21,620 nucleotides of DNA, from the IMG/VR virus record IMGVR_UViG_3300044814_000139, positions 1 to 21,620 of that record; one strand, given 5' to 3'. The position numbers were made by a program, and so were the translations under genes. Every line of letters starts with the position of its first letter. Positions within the stretch are counted from its first letter, which is position 1. A model generated the notes under the pieces. That model was given only the letters and a program-made list of their open reading frames with translations. It was not told the origin of the DNA and searched no databases. Below, one piece after another: positions 1 through 19,557 of the stretch. This DNA is from a virus.

Positions 1-1728
1 ACTAATACAGACGAAAATCCAGTTCATCGCGCCATAGGTACCGTTGAATGGGGCATGAATCCCGCCAGCAAACTTGTAGACGTTCCCGTTCGTGTCAGTG
101 AAGCTTGAGAGATTCTGCCCGACCGCTGAGAATAGCTGGCTGCGTACGTCTGCAATCAAAGTAGCTCCGGCTGTTACAGCAGTGGTGGAGGCTACGGAGT
201 TAGCCCCTACCGTTGAAATCGCTATGTTTGAGGCTACTGGCGTCCCGTTCGTAGGGATGGAAATCAGGACCCCTGAGCCTGTCCCGGCGTTGTTGGCGAA
301 GGACTGCGTTGTCGAGGTGCTGACCGGGACGCTGACCGGGAATACTCCATTCCCGGTGACGAAGGTGTTGTTTAGGGAGTCCCCAGGGAATAGGGAGAAT
401 CCGGTAGGCTCGGCTAGATTCCCGCCTGGTGACGCTCCGGTGAATGTGGCGTCGATCATCATCCAGGCTTGTCCGAATGTTGGGGTGACGTTCAAGGCTA
501 CGTTGATGGAGTTCGCCACCGGGATGGTTCCTACTTCCCCGTCGAGGCCATCCGCGAAGCTAGAGATAGGCCCTGCTAGGAAAGTGTTCGCGGATTCCGT
601 CACCCAGCTTCCTGTAAGGGTGCCGGAAGTGGTTACTGGAGAACCGCTGATGCTGAACTGCGGAGGCAGGCCGAGTCCGACGCTCGAAACGCCTCCGCCG
701 ACTCCAGCGCAGTTGGTCCCTACGGTTGTGAGAATTCCGCCTGCGCCTGTTTCGACGCAGCGGCTTGGAGTAAGGCCAGTGGCGGTTAGGGAGGATGCCT
801 TTAGAGGGCCAGGGTAGTTTACGCGGTACATATTGATGGCGTCGTACCAAACGGTTCCGGGCGTGGAGTATGGTGTGTATCCCATCCGAATCGACACATA
901 CACTGTACCGGCAGGAGCCGTTCCAGTGACTGAAATAGGTGTGCAACTTGTGGAAGTTGTTGTTGCTGCAGGGTCTACGCCGATACCAGTATTGGTTTTA
1001 TCTAGAAAAACGATGCGCAACGTTCCTGTCAGTACCCCATCCGTTTTTATAATCCCCGAAAGGTAAAAAACATCTCCAGGCTGTGCGGTGACAAAACTAA
1101 AGCCAGTTACTTCATTCCCTGCAGGGTCTCCCGGGTAGGCTACTTTTAGGGTATGACTTCCCTCGCAGGGCGCTGCTGTCTCATAGGATGCAGTGACTTG
1201 TGAATCAGGGAACCATCCAGGAGGGGGCATTGCACTGCTTCCTCCAAACCCTGCCTGCTCAAAATTCCCGTTGTATACTATTGGAATAGGCCCTTCTGCG
1301 TAGGGCGCCTTGACAAAGTCCAGGCCATCTGCGATGGTATCCATCGTCACAGGCGCGCCAGGATCACCAAGGATCACATCAGAATAGGTAACCGGAGAAG
1401 GAAAGCCTGCGCCAGAAAGCTGCACATCATATCTTCCATTGGCCGCGTACGCTAACCAGCGTCCGTTCGATTGAGCGGTAAAAGGATTGGACAGTGGGGT
1501 TCCGGCGTTGTCAGCAAAAATAGTCGCGAGGCCCCCGCCGTGGATAAAAACCGTAACCATGCATGCCGGATAGCTGGCTTGTACTTTGGTAGTGGATGTT
1601 AGACCGGAAGTGACTACAGGTTGCGCGCCAGCCTCGCACCAGCCTTGCACGTTTTGGTTTCCGCGGGCCACGAGCGGCACGCCGAGGAACAATAAAGACA
1701 ATAGGAATGCTCGTTTCACGCTGCCCAT
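1..1728 (-). CDS. Tail fibre / receptor-binding protein, 3' part outside window
   Basis: Open for 576 codons from an ATG at 1728 to the window edge, with no stop, so the C-terminus is missing. Residues 1-21 look like a Sec signal peptide: basic n-region (VKR), hydrophobic core FLLSLLFLGVPLV, then A. Residues about 48-118 form a small beta-rich module ending in a stretch like SNGRWLAYAANGRYDVQLSG, often seen in uncultured phage tail proteins. Residues about 150-303 resemble a CBM4/9-like carbohydrate-binding sandwich (NGNFEQ..., PPGWFPDS, closing VWYDAINMYRV). A Gly/Ser/Thr-rich repeat-like region follows (TPSRCVETGAGGIL, SISGSPVTTSGTLTGSW), typical of phage fibres. The ATG lies inside the end of the methyltransferase gene (13-base overlap), so translation is probably coupled. 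Likely role: adhesion to host surface glycans. A signal peptide on a tail protein is unusual. The fibre role is inferred from composition, domains and position. Confidence 0.72.
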   Translation of the reverse strand, partial: MGSVKRAFLLSLLFLGVPLVARGNQNVQGWCEAGAQPVVTSGLTSTTKVQASYPACMVTVFIHGGGLATIFADNAGTPLSNPFTAQSNGRWLAYAANGRYDVQLSGAGFPSPVTYSDVILGDPGAPVTMDTIADGLDFVKAPYAEGPIPIVYNGNFEQAGFGGSSAMPPPGWFPDSQVTASYETAAPCEGSHTLKVAYPGDPAGNEVTGFSFVTAQPGDVFYLSGIIKTDGVLTGTLRIVFLDKTNTGIGVDPAATTTSTSCTPISVTGTAPAGTVYVSIRMGYTPYSTPGTVWYDAINMYRVNYPGPLKASSLTATGLTPSRCVETGAGGILTTVGTNCAGVGGGVSSVGLGLPPQFSISGSPVTTSGTLTGSWVTESANTFLAGPISSFADGLDGEVGTIPVANSINVALNVTPTFGQAWMMIDATFTGASPGGNLAEPTGFSLFPGDSLNNTFVTGNGVFPVSVPVSTSTTQSFANNAGTGSGVLISIPTNGTPVASNIAISTVGANSVASTTAVTAGATLIADVRSQLFSAVGQNLSSFTDTNGNVYKFAGGIHAPFNGTYGAMNWIFVCIS

Positions 1729-2321
1729 GCCGCCACCCTTTCAAATACTGTGGTCGTGTCCGCGCCGTCGTCCAGCATGAAGAGTTTGCGGGCCTTGAAT
1801 TCTTCCTCAATGAGCGTACAAATCGGAACAATCTCCGCGCGCGAGGAATCGTCCATGACGAGCAGCCCGCCTACGCGCAGTAAAGGCCACACGTTATGGA
1901 AGTCTGCGAGCGCCGCTTCGTGAGAGTGATCGCCGTCCACGAAGATGAGGTCGAACTGTTCCGTACGCGAAAGCGTAGGAATAAGTGCACGGGAATCGCC
2001 GATGAGAAACTGGACTTGTTTGCGATACCCCTGGTCGGCGAGCAGCTTATCGATATGCTCATGCGAGCCGCGAGGAGCCCCGCCGTTGCCGCGGCCCCAG
2101 GATATCCAGTCGTGCGCGAAGAGGTCGCATAGCACTATGCGAGATAGCCCGGAAGCAGTAAGCAGGACAGAAAAAAGTGAGCCGCCGTCAAACACGCCGA
2201 TCTCCAGGTAGGATTGCGGGCGGACGAGGCGTGCCGCGAGGTTGAGGGCATCGTACGCCGCAGGGTGCCCGGTGCGGCCAGCGTACCCAAGGGAAGTCAT
2301 GCGCTCGAGCATGTAGTTCAC
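1716..2321 (-). CDS. Class I SAM-dependent methyltransferase (Methyltransf_24-like)
   Basis: A 201-aa protein with a Rossmann methyltransferase signature. Motif I is YLEIGVFDGGS (residues 38-48, SAM binding). An acidic post-strand motif FVDGDHSHE lies at 127-135, and GGLLVMDD at 151-158. This DGDHS pattern is typical of the Methyltransf_24 / cephalosporin-hydroxylase-like group, whose members often act on sugars or small molecules. The start is GTG at 2321 in a GTGA overlap with the preceding glycosyltransferase; an ATG three codons later is an alternative. The gene sits between a glycosyltransferase and the fibre gene, so O-methylation of a glycan added to a virion protein or to the host surface is a reasonable inference. 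The substrate cannot be read from the sequence. It does not resemble a DNA methyltransferase: no DPPY or PCQ motif is visible. Confidence 0.85.
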   Translation of the reverse strand: MNYMLERMTSLGYAGRTGHPAAYDALNLAARLVRPQSYLEIGVFDGGSLFSVLLTASGLSRIVLCDLFAHDWISWGRGNGGAPRGSHEHIDKLLADQGYRKQVQFLIGDSRALIPTLSRTEQFDLIFVDGDHSHEAALADFHNVWPLLRVGGLLVMDDSSRAEIVPICTLIEEEFKARKLFMLDDGADTTTVFERVAAWAA

Positions 2322-3619
2322 CGGACGCCTCGCGCGAGCACGTCCGAGAGAGCGTCTACAGCGTTGTCGATGCCCTCGCCGCGGTTGCGGAACATGCGCA
2401 TAGAGGGATAGAGAGGATGACGTTCGCAGTTAAGCAGGAATTGCCAAGCGGATATCCCGGGGAGCAGGACCCAGACGGGGATGCCCATGGCGCCAGCGAG
2501 GTGCGCGACGCCAGTGTCGGTGGTAACTAATAAGTCGAGCGCTGCAAGGACCGCCGCGGTATCCGACCAGTCGTTGATTGTAGGCACACGCACCGAGACT
2601 CCAGGAGTAGAAATCGGAGGAAGCTCGTCGTAAACGAGGCTCACCCAGTTGCATCCGGCAGGAGGAGAAGTCCTGAGAATGCGTTCTGTTTGCTCCGGCG
2701 TGAGCGAGCGATGCTTGCGAGGAGAGACATTTTCGCCGGACTTCCAGCACAAGCCGATCGTGAGCGCGTCGCCTCGGAGGGTTTGGCGCTGCTGGCTAGC
2801 CTTATGGGCGTCGGCGAACATGTACGGGCCAGTCCAGCGATACTCGTGACAAGCCACGCTGAAGTGCAGGCCGAGGTCCAAGATGGAAGTGAACAGATCG
2901 TACTCGCGAGGGATGATTTCCACCGCCGCACCATCCGGACCGCCGCCGATGACGCGATCGATGAAAGAGTAATCGCGGACGAGCGGTCCGAATTGCGTCG
3001 GGCATTTGAGCGTCACGTGCGCTCCGAGTTGTTTGAGGAGAGGCATCCACCGGAAAAAGAATATATTGTCCCCGTACCCTCCTTCGTCCAGGACTAGGAG
3101 GCGCTTGCCGATGAGGGATTCCGAGAGCCCTGACCATTCCGGGAGGACCGAATGAAGCCAGGAGAAGTTCGCGCAGTACCGCACGTAGTCCGGCCAGGCT
3201 TCAAGCCACCGTCCGAAGCGTAGAAGCGCAGCGGAGTAGAGTACGCCAGCGTAAGGGTCTCCGGGGTCGAGGGAGTTCGCTTCCGCTGCGAGCGGGAGCG
3301 CTTCTGCGAACCGTCCATGAGTTTCAAGAATGACGGCGGCGTTCATTAGCGTGGAGACGTTGCGATTCTTGGAGAGCGCTAGGGAAGAGAGATCCGCCGC
3401 GCGGGAGACATCGCCGAGGACGTAATGCGCAGAAGCGAGGTTGGATAGCTCTAGCCAGTCGGAGGGCAGCGCGTTACGATGGCGATCCAGAGCTAAGCGT
3501 GCGTCCCGCACGTTCATCATTTTTTGCTCGTCGCCGAGGAGAGTGATGTACGGCGGCGCAGGGATGTCGTGTTCGTGGAGGAGAGTGGAGCGCGTGTGCG
3601 GCGTGGCGGTGGAGGTCAT
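2318..3619 (-). CDS. TPR-containing glycosyltransferase (GT9/heptosyltransferase-like)
   Basis: A 433-aa protein. Residues about 53-145 are helical repeats of TPR type (WLELSNLASAHYVLGD, ALPLAAEANSLDPGDP). Residues about 172-415 are a GT-B fold glycosyltransferase domain: DEGGYGDNIFFFRW (178-191) matches the G-x-GD-x-I-x-F-x-R entry motif, GLCWKSGE (289-296) the substrate/phosphate loop, and DTGVAHLAGAMGIPVWVLLP (368-387) the nucleotide-sugar-binding motif. This architecture is common in bacterial TPR-glycosyltransferases, where the TPRs present a protein substrate. ATGA overlap with the adaptor gene upstream and GTGA overlap with the methyltransferase downstream put it firmly in the virion operon. 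Inferred job: glycosylating a phage structural protein or modifying host surface glycan. Family call is strong; target unknown. Confidence 0.88.
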   Translation of the reverse strand: MTSTATPHTRSTLLHEHDIPAPPYITLLGDEQKMMNVRDARLALDRHRNALPSDWLELSNLASAHYVLGDVSRAADLSSLALSKNRNVSTLMNAAVILETHGRFAEALPLAAEANSLDPGDPYAGVLYSAALLRFGRWLEAWPDYVRYCANFSWLHSVLPEWSGLSESLIGKRLLVLDEGGYGDNIFFFRWMPLLKQLGAHVTLKCPTQFGPLVRDYSFIDRVIGGGPDGAAVEIIPREYDLFTSILDLGLHFSVACHEYRWTGPYMFADAHKASQQRQTLRGDALTIGLCWKSGENVSPRKHRSLTPEQTERILRTSPPAGCNWVSLVYDELPPISTPGVSVRVPTINDWSDTAAVLAALDLLVTTDTGVAHLAGAMGIPVWVLLPGISAWQFLLNCERHPLYPSMRMFRNRGEGIDNAVDALSDVLARGVR

Positions 3620-4608
3620 AGTTGTACCCCAGGTCCGGCGAACCCGCTGATTGTATTGTAATAACCAAGCCTAGATGCATCCAATCCTTTGCGCTGAATT
3701 ATCCAGTTCAAAACGAACTCGCGGTCCTGCTTGCGATAGAGAACCTTATGCTCAATGAAATCCTTCTGCGACTTGCCAATCAGGAAGCGGAAGTCCGGCC
3801 CACTAGAACGGGGCGCGATGTCCTTGTTGGCTTCCGCCCATTCGTAAGCGAACTCGCGCGCTTTTGCAAGGATGAGATCCTCGTCAAGAGGCTGCGGGAT
3901 GGTGTCCGTTGGCGCGATGAGATCGAGGCCGTTGCGCACGCCGTAGCATTGGTAAGTAAACGGAGCGACTGGCTGTCCCCACAGTTCGAATAGAGGATAG
4001 CCAAGAGTCGCCGAGCCGGGACGCGTGTCGCGCTGGAAGGGCACCACGCGCGTCGGGAATTGGTACCAAGAGCGCTGCGGGTCCATGGCATCTACCTGCG
4101 CTCGCGTGGTCGTTAGATCGAGATCGATGAACATTTGAGGATTGCGGACGCTGATCCAGGCGCGATGGTCTTTGTATGGCGCAGCGTAGTAAAGCTGGTA
4201 GACCTGATAGACGGCGGCGGCGTTCGTGAGATCCGCAAACGGTCGTTCGATAATTGCGATTCCGTTGGATGAAAAGGAGGGATCGATGGAGATGATGGAG
4301 TAAATTCCGCCTACGCCCACACGGAACTGGCGTTGCGTCAGGAGCGAGTAAGGCTGCGCAGCAGCATCCGCTGCGAGCGCCGCACGCGCCGTAGCGTCGA
4401 AGGTGATCGTCGCTGAACCTTGAACGACTGCGCAGGCTCCAGCAGTTTCAAGCGGAGGCGTTATCCAAGAGGATTCAAAAAGGTTAAAGGACCAGAGGTT
4501 GGCTTCACGGACCGCGCGCCAGGCACGATTTACCAGAGTAGACGCAAATGTGATTGACAGCTTGGGAACGCAGCCGCGGATTTCTGCAGTCATATTGACG
4601 AAGGCCAT
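3616..4608 (-). CDS. Probable head-tail adaptor / connector protein
   Basis: A 330-aa protein, with ATG at 4608 preceded by a strong AAGGGGAGG site. The N-terminus (NRAWRAVREANLWSFNLFES, then a short beta segment with VVQGSATITF) resembles the helical adaptor proteins of podovirus-like phages (tail-tube A/gp4-type): a helix pair with a W-S-F motif, a beta hairpin, and a later helix (EDLILAKAREFAYEWAEANK, about residues 241-260). Further along are YQVYQLYYAAPY and DPQRSWYQFPTR, motifs I associate with uncultured phage structural proteins of this position. The TAATG overlap with the small basic gene upstream and ATGA overlap with the glycosyltransferase downstream indicate one operon. The structural assignment rests on remembered pattern and position, not on a search. 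It could instead be another tail or neck protein. Confidence 0.5.
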   Translation of the reverse strand: MAFVNMTAEIRGCVPKLSITFASTLVNRAWRAVREANLWSFNLFESSWITPPLETAGACAVVQGSATITFDATARAALAADAAAQPYSLLTQRQFRVGVGGIYSIISIDPSFSSNGIAIIERPFADLTNAAAVYQVYQLYYAAPYKDHRAWISVRNPQMFIDLDLTTTRAQVDAMDPQRSWYQFPTRVVPFQRDTRPGSATLGYPLFELWGQPVAPFTYQCYGVRNGLDLIAPTDTIPQPLDEDLILAKAREFAYEWAEANKDIAPRSSGPDFRFLIGKSQKDFIEHKVLYRKQDREFVLNWIIQRKGLDASRLGYYNTISGFAGPGVQL

Positions 4609-5345: not shown

Positions 5346-5798
5346 CTAAATTTTTACAACCTTTACGTACAGGTTATAAGGATACGAAGTTGCCCCTGCA
5401 TTATATTCCGTAAAAAGCTGAATGGAATTACCAGACAAAGAGTGTACCAGCCACGTCATTTCATTTGTGGGGTTCTCTGTAGCACTATAACCAACGGAAC
5501 CGCTAATACGATCATGAAGTATGCCCGCACCGCTTCCATCCGTATACCCAACATCCACAAGAATACTAGAACCAGAGTTGGGATCTTGATTGGGAGAATT
5601 CCAACAAACAGTAACCAAAAAATCCCCCTCAACTATGGGCGTGTAGACCGTCATGGTCGAGACGTTGGAGGTTTGCCCAAGTGTTGTATAGTGTGCCACC
5701 TCCACAACCGCCATCAGCGCGGTCTGAGGTTTGACTCCGAGGCTCGCTACAGCAAACAATCCGGCAATCAGAAGTATCTTATTTATTAATTTCTCCAT
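5346..5798 (-). CDS. Signal-peptide-bearing beta-rich hypothetical protein
   Basis: A 150-aa product from ATG at 5798. This start is chosen because GGAAGGA lies just upstream and TGATG couples it to the preceding gene's stop; an in-frame start further upstream (5870) would overlap that gene by 73 bases. Residues 1-27 read MEKLINKILLIAGLFAVASL then GVKPQTA, a good Sec signal peptide. The remainder is beta-rich, with short Thr/Ser/Val strands (VSTMTVYTPIVEGDFLVTV, SSILVDVGYTDGSGAG). The gene is visibly more AT-rich than both neighbours, suggesting separate acquisition. Proteins with this strand pattern occur in fibre or surface modules of uncultured phages, but no named family is recognised. 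A secreted or envelope-exposed phage product is an alternative to a virion protein. Confidence 0.65.
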   Translation of the reverse strand: MEKLINKILLIAGLFAVASLGVKPQTALMAVVEVAHYTTLGQTSNVSTMTVYTPIVEGDFLVTVCWNSPNQDPNSGSSILVDVGYTDGSGAGILHDRISGSVGYSATENPTNEMTWLVHSLSGNSIQLFTEYNAGATSYPYNLYVKVVKI

Positions 5799-6439
5799 CA
5801 AATCCTTCCCATAAAGTTGCCGCGAGTGAGCATCACCGTGGAAATAACAGCAGAAGTGGGAATCCCACAAGATACTCCCAACAAAGCAGCGAACAAAAAC
5901 GTAGACGTAGGAGTTACGCCTACGTCAGCAGTCGAGGCAGTTGTAGCGGAAACTTTCGCCGTCACTGCGTTCCCATCCGCAATCGCCGTCAAGGAAGCAG
6001 AGTCGAACAAGATAGAAGCCGCGCCGGCGACTTGAATCCAGCCGTAGTATGCGGTCGTAAGTGCGTTGATGTAAATGCCCGCGATGTGCGTAGGAACGGC
6101 AGTCGAGGGATCAGCGTCCCCGTAGACGGTATAGGCTGAACCAATGTCAGCGGTCTTGAAGAACGAGATGCCCCCGCGAGCCGCCGCGCGCGTGGTGGTC
6201 TTGTGCTGCACGTACATGTACACGCCGCCGTAGAGCGTGCCGATGGCGGTGTCCGAGAGCGCCAGCGCAGTCGCGTCGTCCAGCACGATGCGGTCGCCGG
6301 GGAGCGTTTGCGATGCCTGCACGGCAGGCGCGCCGGACGGGACAGATACGATTGCGCCGCCAGCGACGGAGTCGTTCACGTCGTTCAGGAATTTTGCGGT
6401 GAGGAAATCCGCCTGTTTTGTGAGCATGCCACCGGCCAT
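5798..6439 (-). CDS. Probable capsid decoration / head-fibre protein (213 aa)
   Basis: Directly follows the major capsid gene with an 18-base gap. ATG at 6439 is preceded by AAGGAG at a good distance. The product is Ala/Thr/Ser/Val-rich with low charge and a repetitive beta look (GGAIVSVPSGAPAVQASQTL, TASTADVGVTPTSTFLFAAL). The first residues contain a helix-like stretch (MLTKQADFLTAKFLNDVNDS). The position immediately after the capsid gene and this composition are usual for head decoration proteins. The family was not recognised directly, so the role is inferred. Confidence 0.55.
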   Translation of the reverse strand: MAGGMLTKQADFLTAKFLNDVNDSVAGGAIVSVPSGAPAVQASQTLPGDRIVLDDATALALSDTAIGTLYGGVYMYVQHKTTTRAAARGGISFFKTADIGSAYTVYGDADPSTAVPTHIAGIYINALTTAYYGWIQVAGAASILFDSASLTAIADGNAVTAKVSATTASTADVGVTPTSTFLFAALLGVSCGIPTSAVISTVMLTRGNFMGRI

Positions 6440-6457: not shown

Positions 6458-7717
6458 CTAGAAGCCGGCTCCAATTATTTGAGAGTTGTCACGCGGCGAA
6501 GTGGTGTACGCATTGAGAGCCGCTTTCAAGAACATCACAATGAGATCCGCATTCGTTTGCGAGCGGATCGGCGGCGTGAAATTGAAATTGTACTCCGGGT
6601 CAGCAGACGGGCGAAGCTTCCAACCCTTGGCGCGCAGCCAGAAGAACGGCTCGCCGGGCTTGCAGGAGGTCGAGGACGGGAAGTTCGAGATCGCGGACTG
6701 CGCGGCGGTCAGAGACGGTGAGGTGAAGGTGGACGGTTTGATGGAGGTCGTTTGAGATAAGCCGGACGGTAGAATGGTTCCGTACTTGGTAGACGGAGCC
6801 AGCTTGTCCTCGAAGATCATGGCGTCCAGGAGCTTGAGACCGGACATACCGATCGACACGTCTGTCTGCATTTCAAAACGCTGTTTTGGTTCCTGGCGCT
6901 CGAGGAGATAAGCGTAGAGCGCTTTGTTGCAGAGTCCAATGTCCGGGCGCTGCACACAGTTGAGATAAGCTTCGACGAGAACTTTGTAGGTGATTTGCCC
7001 GGTGTTGCCGGACTGGTCGCCACACCAGATGGGGATGGCGTTCAGGACATTGCCAACGACAGCGTTGCGAAGCTGCCCACCATAGGTGGTGAACACATTC
7101 CCGTCCCAGGAAGGATTGACGCCGTCGTTCAGGGCTTCCGACATCCCGTTCAAAAAGATCAGACGGTTAGAGCCGGAGATGGACTGCCCGTGGCGATAGA
7201 AATCGATGGCGATGTCGGTGTTGAGCGCCTGGACAGCGTTGGTCATGTAGGCGTCTACTTCTTTGATCTTGACCGCCGGGCCGGAACCTTGGATTACGTT
7301 CGTCCGGAAGAGGTTCAGAGGGACCTGCTCGATGTACTCCTTGGGGACGAACGCGGTGGAAGCGATGATCTGCTTTTGCGTTACCGTGATGTCCGAACCT
7401 GGAGCAATCGCTCCGCCGTTCACGCGGTCGTACTGGAAAGGAGTCTGCATCAGCGTGCCGCCGAGGAATTCGTCGAGCGCACCGCTCACGCGCAATTTCC
7501 TTAGCCACGCGCTATCGACGAAGAAGCAGTCGTACAAAATGTCGTCGCGAAGTTCCGCGAGCGTCGTAGAACTGAGCTGGTCGAAAGTAGGGTCCACGCA
7601 CAGTTCCATCGGACCTTGATAGAGATACGAGTCGCGCTCGACGACCGCCATCGACTCCATATCAATGACGACGCGAGTGCTGATTACCCGCACTGGATAG
7701 TTGGATTGGTTATTCAC
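6458..7717 (-). CDS. Major capsid protein
   Basis: A 419-aa protein starting with GTG at 7717, with GAGGAGATG upstream as ribosome site. It lies right after the scaffold gene and before the decoration-like gene, the standard place for the major capsid protein. Features consistent with an HK97-fold coat are an N-terminal arm (residues 1-60), a segment with QTPFQYDRVNGGAIAPGSDI, an E-loop-like stretch ending in STAFVPKEYIEQVPLNLF, a long spine-helix candidate (VDAYMTNAVQALNTDIAIDF), an A-domain region with SGLKLLDAMIFEDKLAP, and a C-terminal Trp/Arg-containing strand region (FFWLRAKGWKLRP). Length is normal for a T=7-class coat protein. The assignment rests on gene order and size plus general sequence style. 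Confidence 0.8.
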   Translation of the reverse strand: MNNQSNYPVRVISTRVVIDMESMAVVERDSYLYQGPMELCVDPTFDQLSSTTLAELRDDILYDCFFVDSAWLRKLRVSGALDEFLGGTLMQTPFQYDRVNGGAIAPGSDITVTQKQIIASTAFVPKEYIEQVPLNLFRTNVIQGSGPAVKIKEVDAYMTNAVQALNTDIAIDFYRHGQSISGSNRLIFLNGMSEALNDGVNPSWDGNVFTTYGGQLRNAVVGNVLNAIPIWCGDQSGNTGQITYKVLVEAYLNCVQRPDIGLCNKALYAYLLERQEPKQRFEMQTDVSIGMSGLKLLDAMIFEDKLAPSTKYGTILPSGLSQTTSIKPSTFTSPSLTAAQSAISNFPSSTSCKPGEPFFWLRAKGWKLRPSADPEYNFNFTPPIRSQTNADLIVMFLKAALNAYTTSPRDNSQIIGAGF

Positions 7718-9454: not shown

Positions 9455-9652
9455 TTAAGGAGTGTCTACTTTGTGCTCTTCTCGGAAACGGATGGAGCAC
9501 AGCGCTCCTTGAGAAACATCAAGCATGAGCGTGCCTGTGAGACGCGATTCGTGTAGTTCCTGCATTACGTGCTCGAACTGGTGAGGCTGAAAGATGCGCT
9601 CGCGCACGATGTGATTGTTCTCTTTTTCTGGAGTGACGGTGGTGGTGCTCAC
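9455..9652 (-). CDS. Small hypothetical protein (65 aa)
   Basis: Starts with GTG at 9652 in a GTGA overlap with the portal stop, so it is translated by coupling. The product has a polar N-terminus (MSTTTVTPEKENNHIV) and a compact alpha/beta part, RIFQPHQFEHVMQELHESRL then TGTLMLDVSQGALCSIRFRE. The pattern of helix then a beta hairpin (GTLMLDVSQGALCSIRF) looks like a folded small domain. No family recognised. It is the last gene before the structured non-coding stretch. Confidence 0.65.
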   Translation of the reverse strand: MSTTTVTPEKENNHIVRERIFQPHQFEHVMQELHESRLTGTLMLDVSQGALCSIRFREEHKVDTP

Positions 9653-11724
9653 TTGGACTCCGTAATTGTAGAACGCGCGCCGTTGTCCTTTGATTTCAGC
9701 GCAGGTGCCGCTTGCCCCGTCGGAGGCCGTCCTTCTTGTGGCTGCTGTCCTGGCTTTGGCAAGCCTCCTCCAGCGCTATCTCCAGCGCCGCCGCCCAGCG
9801 CTGCTTTTATCTCCATCATGCGCGCAGCGAATTCCAAATCCATTTCCTGTTCCGCTTTCCATCTCTCTAAGATGGTATTGCCAGGGATGCGCCCGTAGCT
9901 GGGAAGATTCCATGACTCAGCGATAGTTTGCGAGTCGATCTTGACTCCCGCCTTCTTTAGCTGCACCAGTCCTAGCTTCATCTGCATCTGGCTCATCTCA
10001 TGGAGAGAGTTCGGCATGATGAAGAATCGCAAGTTGTCCGCAAACACACGCGCGCGCTGAATAGCGTTCGCGGCGGAAGGTGAATCCACCGCCTCGCCGG
10101 GCATGTGCGAGGGGATGAGCTTCGCAGGGTCGTAGTCGAATACTTCCGGAGTCACGCCGTCCGGACCCACGATCTGCATGATGCGCGGAGTGGTGTAGTA
10201 CTGCAGGATGAGGTATTTCACCATCACGCCGAGGTCGCGCATGGGAGGTTCCATCGAACGCGAAAGGTCCTCGATGATCGGCCCAAGCGCTTCGAGCACT
10301 TTTTCCATCTCGTCCATAGAGCCGGACATGCGGGATTTTACCAAGGCCATGGCGTCGCGCACGCCGAGTTGATTATCGAGCGCCCCTTCTAGGTAGGTAA
10401 TCATGGCCATGGATTCCGGAGTTACCTTGGTGAGATATTCCGGGAGCGCGGGTTGCGCCGGAGGGCCTTCGGAACCCTGGCCGTCGTAACCCATGCGGCC
10501 ATCCGGCTGCCAGGGGTCGAAAGCACGCATCTCGTTCATGGAGACCGCGTTAGTATCGAAGGCCATGGAAGGTTTGAGTTGCTGCTTTATTTTGTCCATG
10601 TTGCCGCGAGCGATTGTTTTGATGGCGTCGTTTAGCTCATAGCCTTCGTGCGCGAGCGAGAATCCGAGTGGCTCCCAGGGCCACTCGTCAAGGCAGAAGC
10701 TGACGCCAGGGAACATGCCGTGCCAGTCGAAGCCCGGGCCATCGTACGGGATGCAGTTATCACTAGAAATAAGCAAACGACGGTAGGGGTACAATCTGGC
10801 GTCATTCTCGTCCGCTTTGCGGTAGCGCATTTGATTCGTAGAAGGATCTATTCCAGTGGCGATATCCATGCCTACGGATGGAACATCGTAAGCCCAGGAG
10901 GATCCGGGTTCGCCCATGGGGATTTTATATCCCGTGCGATTGATGGTGAGGTCAATTACGTAGGATTTCCGGATGGGGACGAGCAGGTCAGCGAGCGCGG
11001 TAGAGCCGGAACGAGGAGTCTTGCCGAAGATGCGCTGGAGGACGTTGCCGCGCGAAGACTGCCGGATGCCGTCGGAGGAGTACCAGTAGCGCGAAGCAGT
11101 CGGGCGCAGGAGATGCTGGTAGGACGGGAACATCCCGTGCGCCATCGCCACAGGATACTCGTCGAGAATATGAACGATGTAAGCCGCCTGCCAGTCCCCG
11201 CTGGAAGGGAGTTGATTGGGGACTACGCAGGGGGCGCCATACGTAAGTAACTTTATATCTCCCCTGCCCGTGCCGAACATGTCGCGGCGATAGATAGGAT
11301 GAATCCAGCCACGGCGCGAACAGGCGGCGTACTGGAGGGCTTCTTTGACCGAGCGGTCCGCAAAGGCTTCGAGATACCAAGCGCGCGTCACGCGGTTCAT
11401 CATCTCCGCTTGCTTTTCGTAGGAGGTGTTGTCGGAGTGATAGCCCCACATGGGACGGAGCTTGGCGAGGGCGCCGATCACCTCGCGCATGTTGCGCTTG
11501 AGGCGGTTGGGATTTACTTTGGAGCGATAGTCGGCAGCAGGCGCTCCGGCGGTGTCCAGGCCGGAGATTACGTCGAGCGCGCGGCGGAAGTCGCCCGAGC
11601 CGCGCTGCGATTTGAGCCAGGACTGGCCTTCTTCGACGGACTCGTTGAGGAATCCTAAGCGACGCGACTCGGGAGCCGCGGCGGGCAAACATTGCCATTC
11701 TTTATATTCTGTCTCTTCGGCCAT
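9649..11724 (-). CDS. Portal protein
   Basis: A 691-aa protein following the large-terminase cluster, as expected for a portal. ATG at 11724 shares its A with the preceding gene's TGA (TGATG). Features that fit are an N-terminal polar region, a helical stretch with RNMREVIGALAKLRPMWGYH, a conserved-looking central region (DEWPWEPLGFSLAHEGYELN, then AIKTIARGNMDKIKQQLKPS), a helix with GALDNQLGVRDAMALVKSRM near residue 455, and a long C-terminal crown-like helical part (RMMEIKAALGGG) ending in a Gly/Pro/Gln-rich tail. The length is in the range of large podovirus-type portals. Function: dodecameric ring at one capsid vertex, docking site of the terminase and channel for DNA. Assignment by position, size and style. 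Confidence 0.78.
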   Translation of the reverse strand: MAEETEYKEWQCLPAAAPESRRLGFLNESVEEGQSWLKSQRGSGDFRRALDVISGLDTAGAPAADYRSKVNPNRLKRNMREVIGALAKLRPMWGYHSDNTSYEKQAEMMNRVTRAWYLEAFADRSVKEALQYAACSRRGWIHPIYRRDMFGTGRGDIKLLTYGAPCVVPNQLPSSGDWQAAYIVHILDEYPVAMAHGMFPSYQHLLRPTASRYWYSSDGIRQSSRGNVLQRIFGKTPRSGSTALADLLVPIRKSYVIDLTINRTGYKIPMGEPGSSWAYDVPSVGMDIATGIDPSTNQMRYRKADENDARLYPYRRLLISSDNCIPYDGPGFDWHGMFPGVSFCLDEWPWEPLGFSLAHEGYELNDAIKTIARGNMDKIKQQLKPSMAFDTNAVSMNEMRAFDPWQPDGRMGYDGQGSEGPPAQPALPEYLTKVTPESMAMITYLEGALDNQLGVRDAMALVKSRMSGSMDEMEKVLEALGPIIEDLSRSMEPPMRDLGVMVKYLILQYYTTPRIMQIVGPDGVTPEVFDYDPAKLIPSHMPGEAVDSPSAANAIQRARVFADNLRFFIMPNSLHEMSQMQMKLGLVQLKKAGVKIDSQTIAESWNLPSYGRIPGNTILERWKAEQEMDLEFAARMMEIKAALGGGAGDSAGGGLPKPGQQPQEGRPPTGQAAPALKSKDNGARSTITESK

Positions 11725-12221
11725 CAGCTTTTCACGGTGTGCTTCTCGGGATTGAAAGACTCTTCGCCCGCCGGACGGTCCCCGATGTCGTTATGCCTGG
11801 CCCACAGGAACGATTCGCGCTCCAAGAAACGCTGCGCGTAGAGCTTCTTCTTGCGGTCGTCCGAGAGCTGGAGATAGAGGCGGAGGAATTCCTTGTTCCA
11901 CTCGTCGGTTTCCGAGGACGCAATCCGCTGATAGATGCGGTCGCGCAGCTCCTTGCGTTTCGTTTCTAGAAGTTCCATATCCCGCTGTCCCTCGCGCTGC
12001 GCGGCTTCGTATTCCTGATGCTGGAGGATGCGCTCTAGTTTATCCACCGCTGCGAGCGTGTCCGCGTATTCGAGGCGATAGCCGGCTGGAGTGGGACAGG
12101 AGCAGCGGTCGGAGCCTGAGCCTCCGGTGTAGGGCGCGAGGAGGATGTAGCCGGGAGGGTGAGCGGGATCGGTTCCGTTAATAAAAAACCATACTGGTTC
12201 TATCGTTCCCGGCTTTCTCAT
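11724..12221 (-). CDS. Hypothetical protein between terminase and portal (165 aa)
   Basis: ATG at 12221 overlaps the terminase stop by four bases (ATGA), and its TGA overlaps the portal start by one base. The N-terminus is Gly/Pro/Tyr-rich with two Cys (RCSCP, about residues 39-43), a possible small metal or beta element. Residues about 60-145 are a long charged helix, probably coiled coil (KLERILQHQEYEAAQREGQR, then MELLETKRKELRDRIYQRIA). No family recognised. The fixed position between terminase and portal points to a role in packaging or portal assembly, but this is inference. Confidence 0.7.
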   Translation of the reverse strand: MRKPGTIEPVWFFINGTDPAHPPGYILLAPYTGGSGSDRCSCPTPAGYRLEYADTLAAVDKLERILQHQEYEAAQREGQRDMELLETKRKELRDRIYQRIASSETDEWNKEFLRLYLQLSDDRKKKLYAQRFLERESFLWARHNDIGDRPAGEESFNPEKHTVKS

Positions 12222-14425
12222 CTGCTCAAGCGCTCCAGCCTGCCATCACCGTAAATTATATCTTCCAGCGTTGCAATGTTTTTCTGTGACATGTCGCTGG
12301 CGGAGATAACGTTCCCGCGATACGGGGAGAGATCGATAGGAGGCAGAGCGGTCTGTTCCACAAAGCGTTTTTTGGAGCGATTCGCCAGCACGTCGAGGTC
12401 GTGCGGGCAGAAGATCGCCATGGCCGCCGCGAAGATACGATCGTCGTGGGAATCGTCCGCGTGCTCGAGCTTTTCCTTGCCGGAGGAAGTGACGTGCACT
12501 TCAAACTCCTTCATCTCGCCAATGAGCCAAGGAGAGTTGATTTCCGCCCAGCCGTTTTGAGAAGCATGTACGAAGTTGCCGGTTAGCATCGCGCGAGTGT
12601 AGCTGAAAGTGAACCAGCCACGCTTCCCTCCGGTGAGTTTTTGACGCCGGATGCGTTTGACCGAGGAGTCGTAGCGAGCCATGCGATGGAAGTTCGAGTA
12701 GCCCATGCGCGCGAGCTGGAGTTGACAAGTGTCCCCGACCGCGGCGACTTGCTCGATGGATAGGTAAGGCTCCTTCCAGCGGGTGACGCCCGCGGTCATG
12801 TAAGTTTTATAGTACGCGGCGATCGCAAGGACGAAGGCGAATGCTTCCACGTGGTTGACATGCGAGGAAGAGAATTCCGCGCACTGAATGTCCGACTCCC
12901 CGCGCCGACCGGTCGTCCACACGGAGATCACCGTGGAATCCTGGCCTTTGCCTTCGGAGGTGTCCACGCCAATGGAGTAGGAGACGCCAGGACGCGGATG
13001 ATGGAAGATCAGGAGGATGCTGTCCACGTCTTCCGGCTCGGACTCACGCAGCGTCTCAGGACGGAGAGGGATGAGTTCCCAGCGGTAAGTTTCGTTTTTG
13101 CTGGATGTGAATTTGACCGGGACGCGCTCGCGAGTACGGTCGAAATATTCAGGGGCTACTTCGTGTGACTCTTCGATCGACTGACCTGTGAGCGTGAAGC
13201 ATTCGTACTCGCGCTTGCGATGAAGGTTTATGGTCGAGATGGTTTCGTGGCCGAACACGCTCTCGCTTGAACGTTGGAGAGCTTCCTCGTCGTCGCCGGC
13301 CATTTCCTGGAGGAAGACGGATTCGATGTTCTTGGCCTTAGCTTGCTCGTGCTCGACCTCCCAGAACCATTGCTGGTTGATGGGCATACGATAGTTCGCG
13401 CCGAGGTGCTTGGAGAGGAGTTTGTCGGATTTGACGTAGAGTTCCGCTTTCGCGACGTGCAAGCGAGTGTCGCGATGCGGGATCCAGTCCGGAGGAACCG
13501 GACGCATGCGCAGCCAGGTAGAAGTGGGATAGATATCCGTGCCGCAGAACCAAGGAAGGAAGCGGGAACACAGACGCGAACGATGATGCTCCCAGTTCGC
13601 CTTGGCGTGACGGTAGGTATCCGGCCACCAGCCTTTGTCGCCTTCGCCGGTGCCTTCGAGGCAGCCGAACACTCCAGGGGAAGCATGCACGGCCTTAAAG
13701 AGAGAAGATTCGATTTGGTTGACAGGATCGCTGAAGGAAGCGCACTCGGAAAGGTGATAGAGCGTAGGAGTGGTCCCACGAGCGATACCGGAAGTCTGCG
13801 CGCCGTGCTGGAAGCTGACGCCGGATGCCAGGGAGCCGAAGACCAGCATCCCGCGGTCGGATTCGACGCGCCGGGTGTGCGCCGGGACCAGCCAGGGAGG
13901 GCACATGTCATACGCAAGGAATAACATGTTGGCCATCAGGCCGGTTTTGGTTTGGTCTGCGGAGCCGATCACCGCGTTGATGCCGTAGCTGAAGATAATG
14001 CGGTGCGCGATTAGGAGTTCGATGAGCGTCGAGAGGCCGAGCTGACGCGCTTTGAGAATTATCAGCTCGATCGCCACGCGGAGTTCTTCGAGGTCCGCGA
14101 TGATGTCAAAGAGAAGACGCTGCGGCACGCGGAAGCGGAAGCGCTTGATGATGTTCTCTTCCGTTTTTATATACGCGAAACGGGTTAGCCAATAGACAGC
14201 GTCGCATTGGCACAGTAATTGCTGGCTGAGGATGAATTGAGAATCGGCGAGGGATAGATTCTGCGTGGCCTTGGCGCGACCGGTATCGTCGTAGATAAAT
14301 TTTCCCTCGCGAATGAGCCTCGCGTTGAAAGCGTCTACTTCTTCGACGCTAGAGTAAGAGGGAATGAAGCCGAACTCCTCAGCGGCAAGAGCCAGGCGCT
14401 CGGATACTATTTTTTCGCTGTACAC
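12218..14425 (-). CDS. terL: Terminase large subunit (packaging ATPase-nuclease)
   Basis: A 735-aa DNA-packaging motor protein. The N-terminal ATPase has a phage-terminase Walker A-like motif KARQLGLST (residues 125-133) and Walker B TLYHLSE (221-227, with the acidic pair position at E227). The C-terminal RNase H-type nuclease shows its first catalytic Asp in SIGVDTSEG (D488), a middle acidic segment around SIEQVAAVGDT (557-565), and the last acidic cluster HADDSHDDR (655-663). It therefore cuts concatemeric DNA and pumps it into the prohead through the portal. At 735 aa it is longer than typical terminases (about 450-600 aa), with extra sequence in the N-terminal 80 and central 270-440 residues. 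The start is GTG at 14425 in TAGTG, coupled to the upstream gene. High confidence from motifs and context. Confidence 0.93.
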   Translation of the reverse strand: MYSEKIVSERLALAAEEFGFIPSYSSVEEVDAFNARLIREGKFIYDDTGRAKATQNLSLADSQFILSQQLLCQCDAVYWLTRFAYIKTEENIIKRFRFRVPQRLLFDIIADLEELRVAIELIILKARQLGLSTLIELLIAHRIIFSYGINAVIGSADQTKTGLMANMLFLAYDMCPPWLVPAHTRRVESDRGMLVFGSLASGVSFQHGAQTSGIARGTTPTLYHLSECASFSDPVNQIESSLFKAVHASPGVFGCLEGTGEGDKGWWPDTYRHAKANWEHHRSRLCSRFLPWFCGTDIYPTSTWLRMRPVPPDWIPHRDTRLHVAKAELYVKSDKLLSKHLGANYRMPINQQWFWEVEHEQAKAKNIESVFLQEMAGDDEEALQRSSESVFGHETISTINLHRKREYECFTLTGQSIEESHEVAPEYFDRTRERVPVKFTSSKNETYRWELIPLRPETLRESEPEDVDSILLIFHHPRPGVSYSIGVDTSEGKGQDSTVISVWTTGRRGESDIQCAEFSSSHVNHVEAFAFVLAIAAYYKTYMTAGVTRWKEPYLSIEQVAAVGDTCQLQLARMGYSNFHRMARYDSSVKRIRRQKLTGGKRGWFTFSYTRAMLTGNFVHASQNGWAEINSPWLIGEMKEFEVHVTSSGKEKLEHADDSHDDRIFAAAMAIFCPHDLDVLANRSKKRFVEQTALPPIDLSPYRGNVISASDMSQKNIATLEDIIYGDGRLERLSR

Positions 14426-18547: not shown

Positions 18548-18766
18548 ATGATTGACCAAATAACACTAACTAACACTCCCAGAGGATGGATAGCCGAGTT
18601 TAAAGGTCCTCATTCTCAAGAGGTCATACACCTGTTCGGCACAAACATGCTTCCTACTCCATTCACAAAGGAAGCTAGCCCAAAGACAGTAAGAGAATGC
18701 GTACAAGCACAAAACCCTAAAGTTATGGTCACACTCGCAGAGGAAAGGACGGATTCTCAATGCTAA
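18548..18766 (+). CDS. Hypothetical phage protein (72 aa)
   Basis: ATG at 18548, 11 bases after GAGGAG. The product reads MIDQITLTNTPRGWIAEFKG, then PHSQEVIHLFGTNMLPTPFT, then a helical part (KTVRECVQAQNPKVMVTLAE). The pattern GW-x-A-x-F-x-GPH ... LFGT-x-x-LPTPFT recalls a small uncharacterised protein common in phages at the head of accessory operons. Its end overlaps the DUF932 start by seven bases. No molecular function is known. Confidence 0.7.
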   Translation: MIDQITLTNTPRGWIAEFKGPHSQEVIHLFGTNMLPTPFTKEASPKTVRECVQAQNPKVMVTLAEERTDSQC

Positions 18767-19557
18767 CTAACAATACCCCGCTCACCAATGAACAGATTCA
18801 ACGCTATGCCCCTGCAGCATTCGCTGGTCAACCATGGGATAGACAGTCAGAGAGATATACCTTCGTGCCTACATCCGCTGTAATCGACGGGATGCGCGCG
18901 AATAACTTCTTTCCGGTCAAAGCGAGCCAGTCTCGCACGCGAATCGCTGGGAAGGAATTCTTCACCAAGCATATGATTCGCTTTCGGGCCGGAGACGTAC
19001 AGCTGTCTGCGGTGGGAGACAGTGTATTAGAGATGGTACTGGTCAATTCCCACGATGGCTCTTCTGCATATGAACTGTCCGCTGGCGTGTTTCGTCTCGC
19101 GTGCCTGAACGGAATGATGGTAGCGGAGAGCTTGCTTGAAGCTATCCACGTTCGCCATACCGGGAACATTCTAGAGGAAGTGATTGAGGGTAGCCAGAAA
19201 TTGCTTGCGAACGGCCCGGTCGTGAGTGACACGATTAAGGCGTGGAAAGGGATTACGCTCGATTCCCGGGAGCAATTGGCGCTAGCAGAATCCGCGCATG
19301 CTCTAAGGTTCGAAGAGGATGCCGCAGTGCGGCCCGTTCAGCTGTTGACCGCGCGGCGTCACAATGATGCGGGTACGGACCTATGGTCCACATTCAATCG
19401 CGTGCAAGAGAATACCGTGCGCGGGGGGATCCGCTACGTAGACGCAGAGAATCATCGAAGAAACCGCACGCGGGAAGTCAAGGGTATTTCTGAGAATGTC
19501 AAACTGAACCGTGCTCTTTGGATGCTGGCTGAAAAGATGGCGCAGTTGAAAGCATAG
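18760..19557 (+). CDS. DUF932-family protein (phage/plasmid-like)
   Basis: A 265-aa member of DUF932, widely spread in phages and plasmids, with no firmly established biochemical role. Recognisable conserved blocks in order are SERYTFVPTSAVIDGMRANN near residue 30, FTKHMIRFR near 68-76, LVNSHDGSSAYELSAGVFRL then ACLNGMMV near 94-121, VRHTGNILEEVIEGS near 131, DLWSTFNRVQENTVRGG near 207-223, and the terminal KLNRALWMLAEKMA. It is full length for the family, with no frameshift or missing block. It overlaps the 72-aa gene upstream and is followed by a strong G-rich hairpin. A role in early takeover or mobile-element maintenance is inference. Confidence 0.92.
   Translation: MLTNNTPLTNEQIQRYAPAAFAGQPWDRQSERYTFVPTSAVIDGMRANNFFPVKASQSRTRIAGKEFFTKHMIRFRAGDVQLSAVGDSVLEMVLVNSHDGSSAYELSAGVFRLACLNGMMVAESLLEAIHVRHTGNILEEVIEGSQKLLANGPVVSDTIKAWKGITLDSREQLALAESAHALRFEEDAAVRPVQLLTARRHNDAGTDLWSTFNRVQENTVRGGIRYVDAENHRRNRTREVKGISENVKLNRALWMLAEKMAQLKA

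Follow-up and report, generated by a model that had tools for sequence, protein, structure and literature searches.

A glycosyltransferase-led gene cassette of variable content lies between the adaptor and fibre genes of podovirus-like phages and may decorate a virion protein

The sequence studied was the IMG/VR record IMGVR_UViG_3300044814_000139, whose whole analysed stretch of 21,620 bases is referred to as the window. On its minus strand a podovirus-like late operon was found, with genes for terminase, portal, major capsid protein, adaptor, a glycosyltransferase (GT), a methyltransferase (MT) and a fibre-like protein. The GT and MT genes were placed in the virion operon because the gene for the major capsid protein belongs to the same operon. 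The features are the following.

2318..3619, minus strand: glycosyltransferase with TPR and GT9-like GT-B domains, 433 amino acids (family F0, which leads every cassette described below)
1716..2321, minus strand: Methyltransf_24 class I S-adenosylmethionine (SAM) methyltransferase, 201 amino acids (family F9; its GTG start overlaps the GT stop)
3616..4608, minus strand: conserved tail ("adaptor") protein, bordering the cassette site upstream
1..1728, minus strand: fibre-like protein, 576 amino acids, running off the contig and bordering the cassette site downstream
6458..7717, minus strand: major capsid protein (phrog_9953, E 1.7e-7; NF033394, E 5.5e-11, below its cut-off)
9649..11724, minus strand: portal protein, P22/SU10-like (P22_portal, E 4.4e-5; phrog_156, E 2.5e-10)
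12218..14425, minus strand: terminase large subunit, the query used to find relatives

A preliminary description of this DNA had reported a TPR-GT9-like GT and a Methyltransf_24-like MT, translationally coupled to each other and to both neighbours. Open reading frames (ORFs), domain matches and, for the GT, the modelled fold agree with the two assignments, and the coupling is seen in the overlaps: ATGA between the adaptor stop and the GT start (4 bases), GTGA between GT and MT (4 bases), and 13 nucleotides between the end of the MT and the start of the fibre gene. The proposed flanks, adaptor before and fibre after, recur in the relatives, but both labels lack a family match. The adaptor protein is 52-63% identical among relatives and 34% identical to Tunturi_1 gp11, annotated as "tail protein"; it had no Pfam or PHROG match, and "adaptor" is a homology label. 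The fibre-like protein, also without a family match, owes its label to position, length and composition.

The GT displayed TPR matches in Pfam (E 5e-4 to 1e-2) and a Glyco_transf_9 match (PF01075, E 3e-4) of 20.6 bits, just under the curated cut-off of 22 bits, while its ortholog in the relative G004 scored 25.4 bits, above that cut-off. In the AlphaFold2 model (predicted local distance difference test, pLDDT, 80; predicted template modelling score, pTM, 0.81) a TPR solenoid at about residues 29-155 is N-terminal to a GT-B domain at about residues 165-433. Comparison of the GT-B domain by VIA-align gave Z values of 19.5 for one GT9 structure, 17.7-18.4 for WaaC/WaaF and 16.4 for TibC, a protein heptosyltransferase. 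For the whole chain, the best Foldseek matches were the protein O-glycosyltransferases SPINDLY and OGT, with low full-length TM-scores (about 0.3). Residues D368, T369, A372, H373 and L374 of the GT9 C-terminal sugar-nucleotide motif (D-T-G-x-x-H-L) were invariant in a seven-sequence alignment. By its modelled fold and motif, the catalytic domain belongs with the GT9/heptosyltransferase-like GT-B enzymes. A single-sequence search of viral contigs with the GT gave no match and a profile search gave many; tblastn against isolate phages (50,697 phage records) revealed no detectable homolog.

The MT matched Methyltransf_24 at E 1.5e-20, with 74.4 bits against a cut-off of 26.3. Its sequence reads as having the SAM motif ExGxxxG and a VDGDHSH...DD pattern as in metal-dependent O-methyltransferases. 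Sugar O-methyltransferase models matched weakly, namely RMNT_CmcI for the MT (E 0.0085) and TylF for its G004 ortholog (E 0.0088). In the same 50,697 phage records only two weak matches to the MT were found, both in unannotated records.

A terminase search yielded 18 related IMG/VR records, several of them 61-65 kb long, among which G001 was the closest to the window (80% by terminase). The host of the window phage is probably an acidobacterium, since the nearest isolates, the Tunturiibacter phages Tunturi 1 and 2 (33% identity for the terminase and 34% for the adaptor), are podovirus-like phages of Acidobacteriota originating from Arctic soil (PMC11924767). Their gene order (terminase, portal, capsid, gp9, gp10, tail protein gp11, gp12) matches that of the window, and the N-terminus of gp12 is 41% identical to the fibre-like protein over 122 residues.

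Comparison of the relatives, mostly of 61-66 kb, revealed a cassette of about 1.9-7.3 kb between adaptor and fibre in eleven phages (the window, G004, G015, G002, G011, G013, G017, L069, L073, L076 and L077). In all eleven, the TPR-GT9 gene (F0) is the first of the cassette and directly follows the same adaptor gene, so that the arrangement is not due to chance. The short form, GT followed by the F9 methyltransferase, occurs only in the window and G004, whose F9 proteins are 47% identical; most of the remaining cassettes carry other methyltransferases. The nine longer cassettes contain extra genes, end in another GT9-like gene (F1) directly ahead of the fibre gene, and reach up to about nine genes. 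Among the additions are probable GTs, a Methyltransf_13/14 C-methyltransferase (F4), a Methyltransf_25 protein (F6), several Methyltransf_24 families (F3, F5, F7 and F10), an NAD epimerase in L077 and a cupin/mannose-6-phosphate-isomerase-like protein in G011. F2 and F8 had no meaningful Pfam match, F2 being GT-A-like by eye only. Of the two genes F0 is the constant one, while F9 is present in 2 of the 11 cassettes. By gene content, GT plus MT is the smallest version of a larger cassette, which many of these phages have and some lack. The G011 cassette also includes a recombination endonuclease VII-like gene (L059:3135-3500; PF02945, E 3.3e-18), possibly a homing endonuclease aiding cassette movement.

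In G001, G008 and L017 the junction is empty, the fibre gene starting at most about 12 bases from the end of the adaptor gene or overlapping it, and in Tunturi 1 and 2 gp11 and gp12 are 8 bases apart. Searches of the whole records did not find F0 or F1 in G001, G008 or Tunturi 1; neither Tunturi genome had a Glyco_transf_9 match, and Tunturi 1 had no match to the GT profile. Since G001, the closest relative of the window by terminase, has an empty junction, the cassette is gained and lost among kin. On the adaptor tree, with modest support, the three junction states require at least three changes. No tyrosine integrase was found in 13 records and no serine recombinase or resolvase in 11, the completeness of these IMG/VR records being uncertain. 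In a simple hydropathy scan, none of the 62 cassette proteins had a strong membrane span; the highest 19-residue mean hydropathy was 1.86, in Rossmann-like core strands. The ratio of nonsynonymous to synonymous substitutions (dN/dS) gave no information, since the near copies were identical.

In order to place the GT, a tree was built from the eleven F0 proteins and other viral and bacterial TPR-GT9 proteins, many rows being gappy and the supports moderate. The eleven F0 proteins formed one group (Shimodaira-Hasegawa-like approximate likelihood ratio test, SH-aLRT, 89) adjoining other viral copies, and within it those of the window and G004, which are also the two genomes carrying F9, were paired (SH-aLRT 83). 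This suggests that F0 is a phage-resident lineage, its exact history aside. The bacterial TPR-GT9 homologs are about 30% identical to the phage GT and share its domain order (PF01075 plus TPR) and the D-T-[GA]-x-A-H-L motif, but the phage F0 proteins group apart from them. Related genes were also observed in other viral contigs. On a 125-kb contig (L068:3995-8215) a relative of the GT, a Methyltransf_24-like relative of the window's MT and a GT2-like protein sit among signal-peptide fibre-like genes, which is a different arrangement of the same parts. In two more distant phages (L080:6893-9236 and L081:6833-9188) a TPR-GT9 gene immediately precedes a tail/adaptor-like gene; the link between GT and tail gene may thus recur in more distant phages.

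At the N-terminus of the fibre-like protein is a Sec-type signal peptide, and after it comes a domain containing two invariant cysteines; both features were aligned in 15 phages and are also found in Tunturi_1 gp12.

Window 1-1728, minus strand, and L226:10371-10820: signal peptide plus two-Cys domain (alignment A3, 15 phages)

The model of this N-terminal domain was of low confidence (pLDDT 64) and gave no meaningful fold match. The co-occurrence of the GT-MT pair with fibre types, suggested earlier as a check, did not emerge: the fibre bodies are mosaic, with no tie to cassette type, and that of the window matches no other ORF among the compared genomes. By eye, residues of about 145-300 (window 1-1350, minus strand) have the look of a putative carbohydrate-binding module (YNGNFEQAGFGG...GWFPDS...GSHTLKV).

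Glycosylation directed at a protein, as the preliminary description proposed, fits the TPR plus GT9 architecture, the fixed site beside the fibre gene and the sugar-tailoring enzymes of the relatives; that neither recombinases nor clear membrane spans were found agrees with it as well. We give about an even chance to a cytoplasmic, FlmG/TibC-like glycosylation cassette that decorates a virion protein, most likely the neighbouring fibre, with a variable, methylated glycan. The fibre is the leading candidate because the cassette adjoins its gene in every case. In Caulobacter crescentus, the TPR domain of FlmG binds flagellin and the GT-B domain glycosylates it in the cytoplasm (PMC7591256). Since the TPR domain of FlmG holds flagellin, that of the phage GT likely holds a protein acceptor. 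Compared by architecture alone, both are soluble cytoplasmic proteins with N-terminal TPR and C-terminal GT-B; FlmG, at 596 amino acids, has a more extended TPR part and uses flagellins as acceptors of pseudaminic acid, whereas the present GT is encoded by a phage, is smaller and has a methyltransferase gene coupled to its own. TibC-type enzymes glycosylate an exported adhesin before its export. The GT9-like GT-B fold of the phage GT is common to TibC/AAH (PDB 4rap, 4rb4), but TibC is a dodecameric iron enzyme, the phage GT has TPR in the N-terminal place, and the identity is about 10%. OGT and SPINDLY (GT41) likewise have a TPR solenoid before a GT-B catalytic domain, which in the phage GT is GT9-like and not GT41.

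For this protein-directed cassette we infer the virion protein as acceptor, the fibre as that protein, the sugar as the site of methylation, the purpose, the donor sugar and the order of steps. The TPR solenoid would dock a newly made virion protein, most likely the fibre from the next gene, and the GT9-like GT-B domain would move a sugar from a nucleotide-activated donor onto the docked protein in the cytoplasm. The Methyltransf_24 enzyme would then O-methylate the attached sugar and may cap it. In the relatives, the added transferases, C- and O-methyltransferases, epimerase and isomerase would lengthen or vary the glycan, so that one class of virion part would be decorated differently from phage to phage. 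The purpose might be to alter adsorption, or else to evade or to bind surface glycans. A more specific version is put forward tentatively and regarded as doubtful: soil podoviruses would carry a modular, swappable island in a fixed slot, whose TPR-guided GT9 enzyme would glycosylate the Sec-signal fibre in the cytoplasm, the neighbouring genes building a methylated glycan specific to each phage.

Several observations weigh against a decorated virion protein. Both the glycan and its acceptor are predictions from genes and models. The solved folds nearest the GT domain are those of GT9 enzymes, including lipopolysaccharide (LPS) heptosyltransferases acting on lipid, and a simple motif scan found bacterial TPR-GT9 genes linked to flagellin in only 2 of 80 loci. 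Given the signal peptide of the fibre, a cytoplasmic enzyme must act before any export. Furthermore, the Ser/Thr and sequon content of the fibre bodies was the same with and without the cassette. The cassette-free relatives have the same fibre N-domain, so that the decoration would be dispensable.

It is unlikely, in our judgement, that the enzymes instead change a host surface glycan (LPS core or another polysaccharide) during infection, for instance to block superinfection or to keep progeny from adhering to debris. Serotype conversion is a known phage strategy, WaaC and WaaF, among the closest solved folds, act on LPS, and the C-methyltransferase, epimerase and isomerase of the longer cassettes are typical of polysaccharide loci. 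However, a TPR domain is fused to the GT, the site lies within the late virion operon beside the fibre, neither integrase nor resolvase was found in 11-13 relatives and no clear membrane component in the 62 cassette proteins. Gtr-type serotype-conversion cassettes combine a membrane flippase/glucosyltransferase with the integrase of a temperate phage; since no integrase or resolvase and no strong membrane span were detected here, a lysogenic set of this type is unlikely.

Distinctly improbable, in our estimation, is a virion target other than the fibre, such as the capsid, the adaptor or a small head protein. Throughout the relatives examined the cassette lies directly against the adaptor and fibre genes, and in none of them does it border the capsid gene. 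Nonetheless, a place in the operon is not enough to identify the target, the fibre signal peptides could compete with cytoplasmic modification, and in mycobacteriophages the reported targets are capsid and tail tube (PMC11600133).

It was also considered that the MT is unrelated to the sugar and methylates a protein or small molecule, the pair being accidental neighbours in a cargo ("moron") site. Methyltransf_24 enzymes use many acceptors, F9 is confined to two of the eleven cassettes, and at least one cassette (G011) holds an unrelated gene, that of the endonuclease VII-like protein. This is nevertheless very unlikely, given that most cassettes combine the same GT with one methyltransferase or another, together with other sugar enzymes, and that the window and G004 share both a GT subclade and F9. 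Although phages encode DNA-base glycosyltransferases and host-protein-modifying enzymes, an action of the GT on nucleic acid or a host protein is hardly credible in view of its late-operon location and of its architecture, TPR preceding a GT9-like domain, which is not that of the known base glucosyltransferases.

Two further genes of the window were noted. A DUF932 protein (E 2.5e-41; phrog_12094, E 3e-78) is encoded at 18760-19557 on the plus strand, opposite to the virion operon, and a small virion-operon protein with a signal-peptide-like leader (MEKLINKILLIAGLFAVASLG...) at 5346-5870 on the minus strand.

A phage cassette for sugar methylation is not a new idea in itself, as the principle of phage GT and methyltransferase genes modifying virion proteins is known. 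According to PMC11600133, citing Freeman et al. 2023, three tandem GT genes downstream of an O-methyltransferase gene in cluster O mycobacteriophages modify capsid and tail-tube proteins, and a similar suggestion was made for the cluster CB phages of Rhodococcus (PMC13313380). The cluster O phages share with the present ones the grouping of GT and methyltransferase genes; they belong to another virus group, whereas here a fixed, variably filled site is led by a TPR-GT9 gene. In the literature searched there was no description of an F0-led cassette that varies in content at a single junction and is missing from that site in related phages.

If the decoration of a virion protein is correct, the cassette would be an interchangeable sugar-decoration module beside a likely host-recognition gene, and a possible way to change how particles stick to cells or debris. 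Virion glycosylation would then reach beyond actinobacteriophages to phages probably infecting Acidobacteriota, a major and little-studied soil group. It would also offer a compact TPR-guided protein glycosyltransferase, and the natural relatives with and without the module permit a direct comparison.

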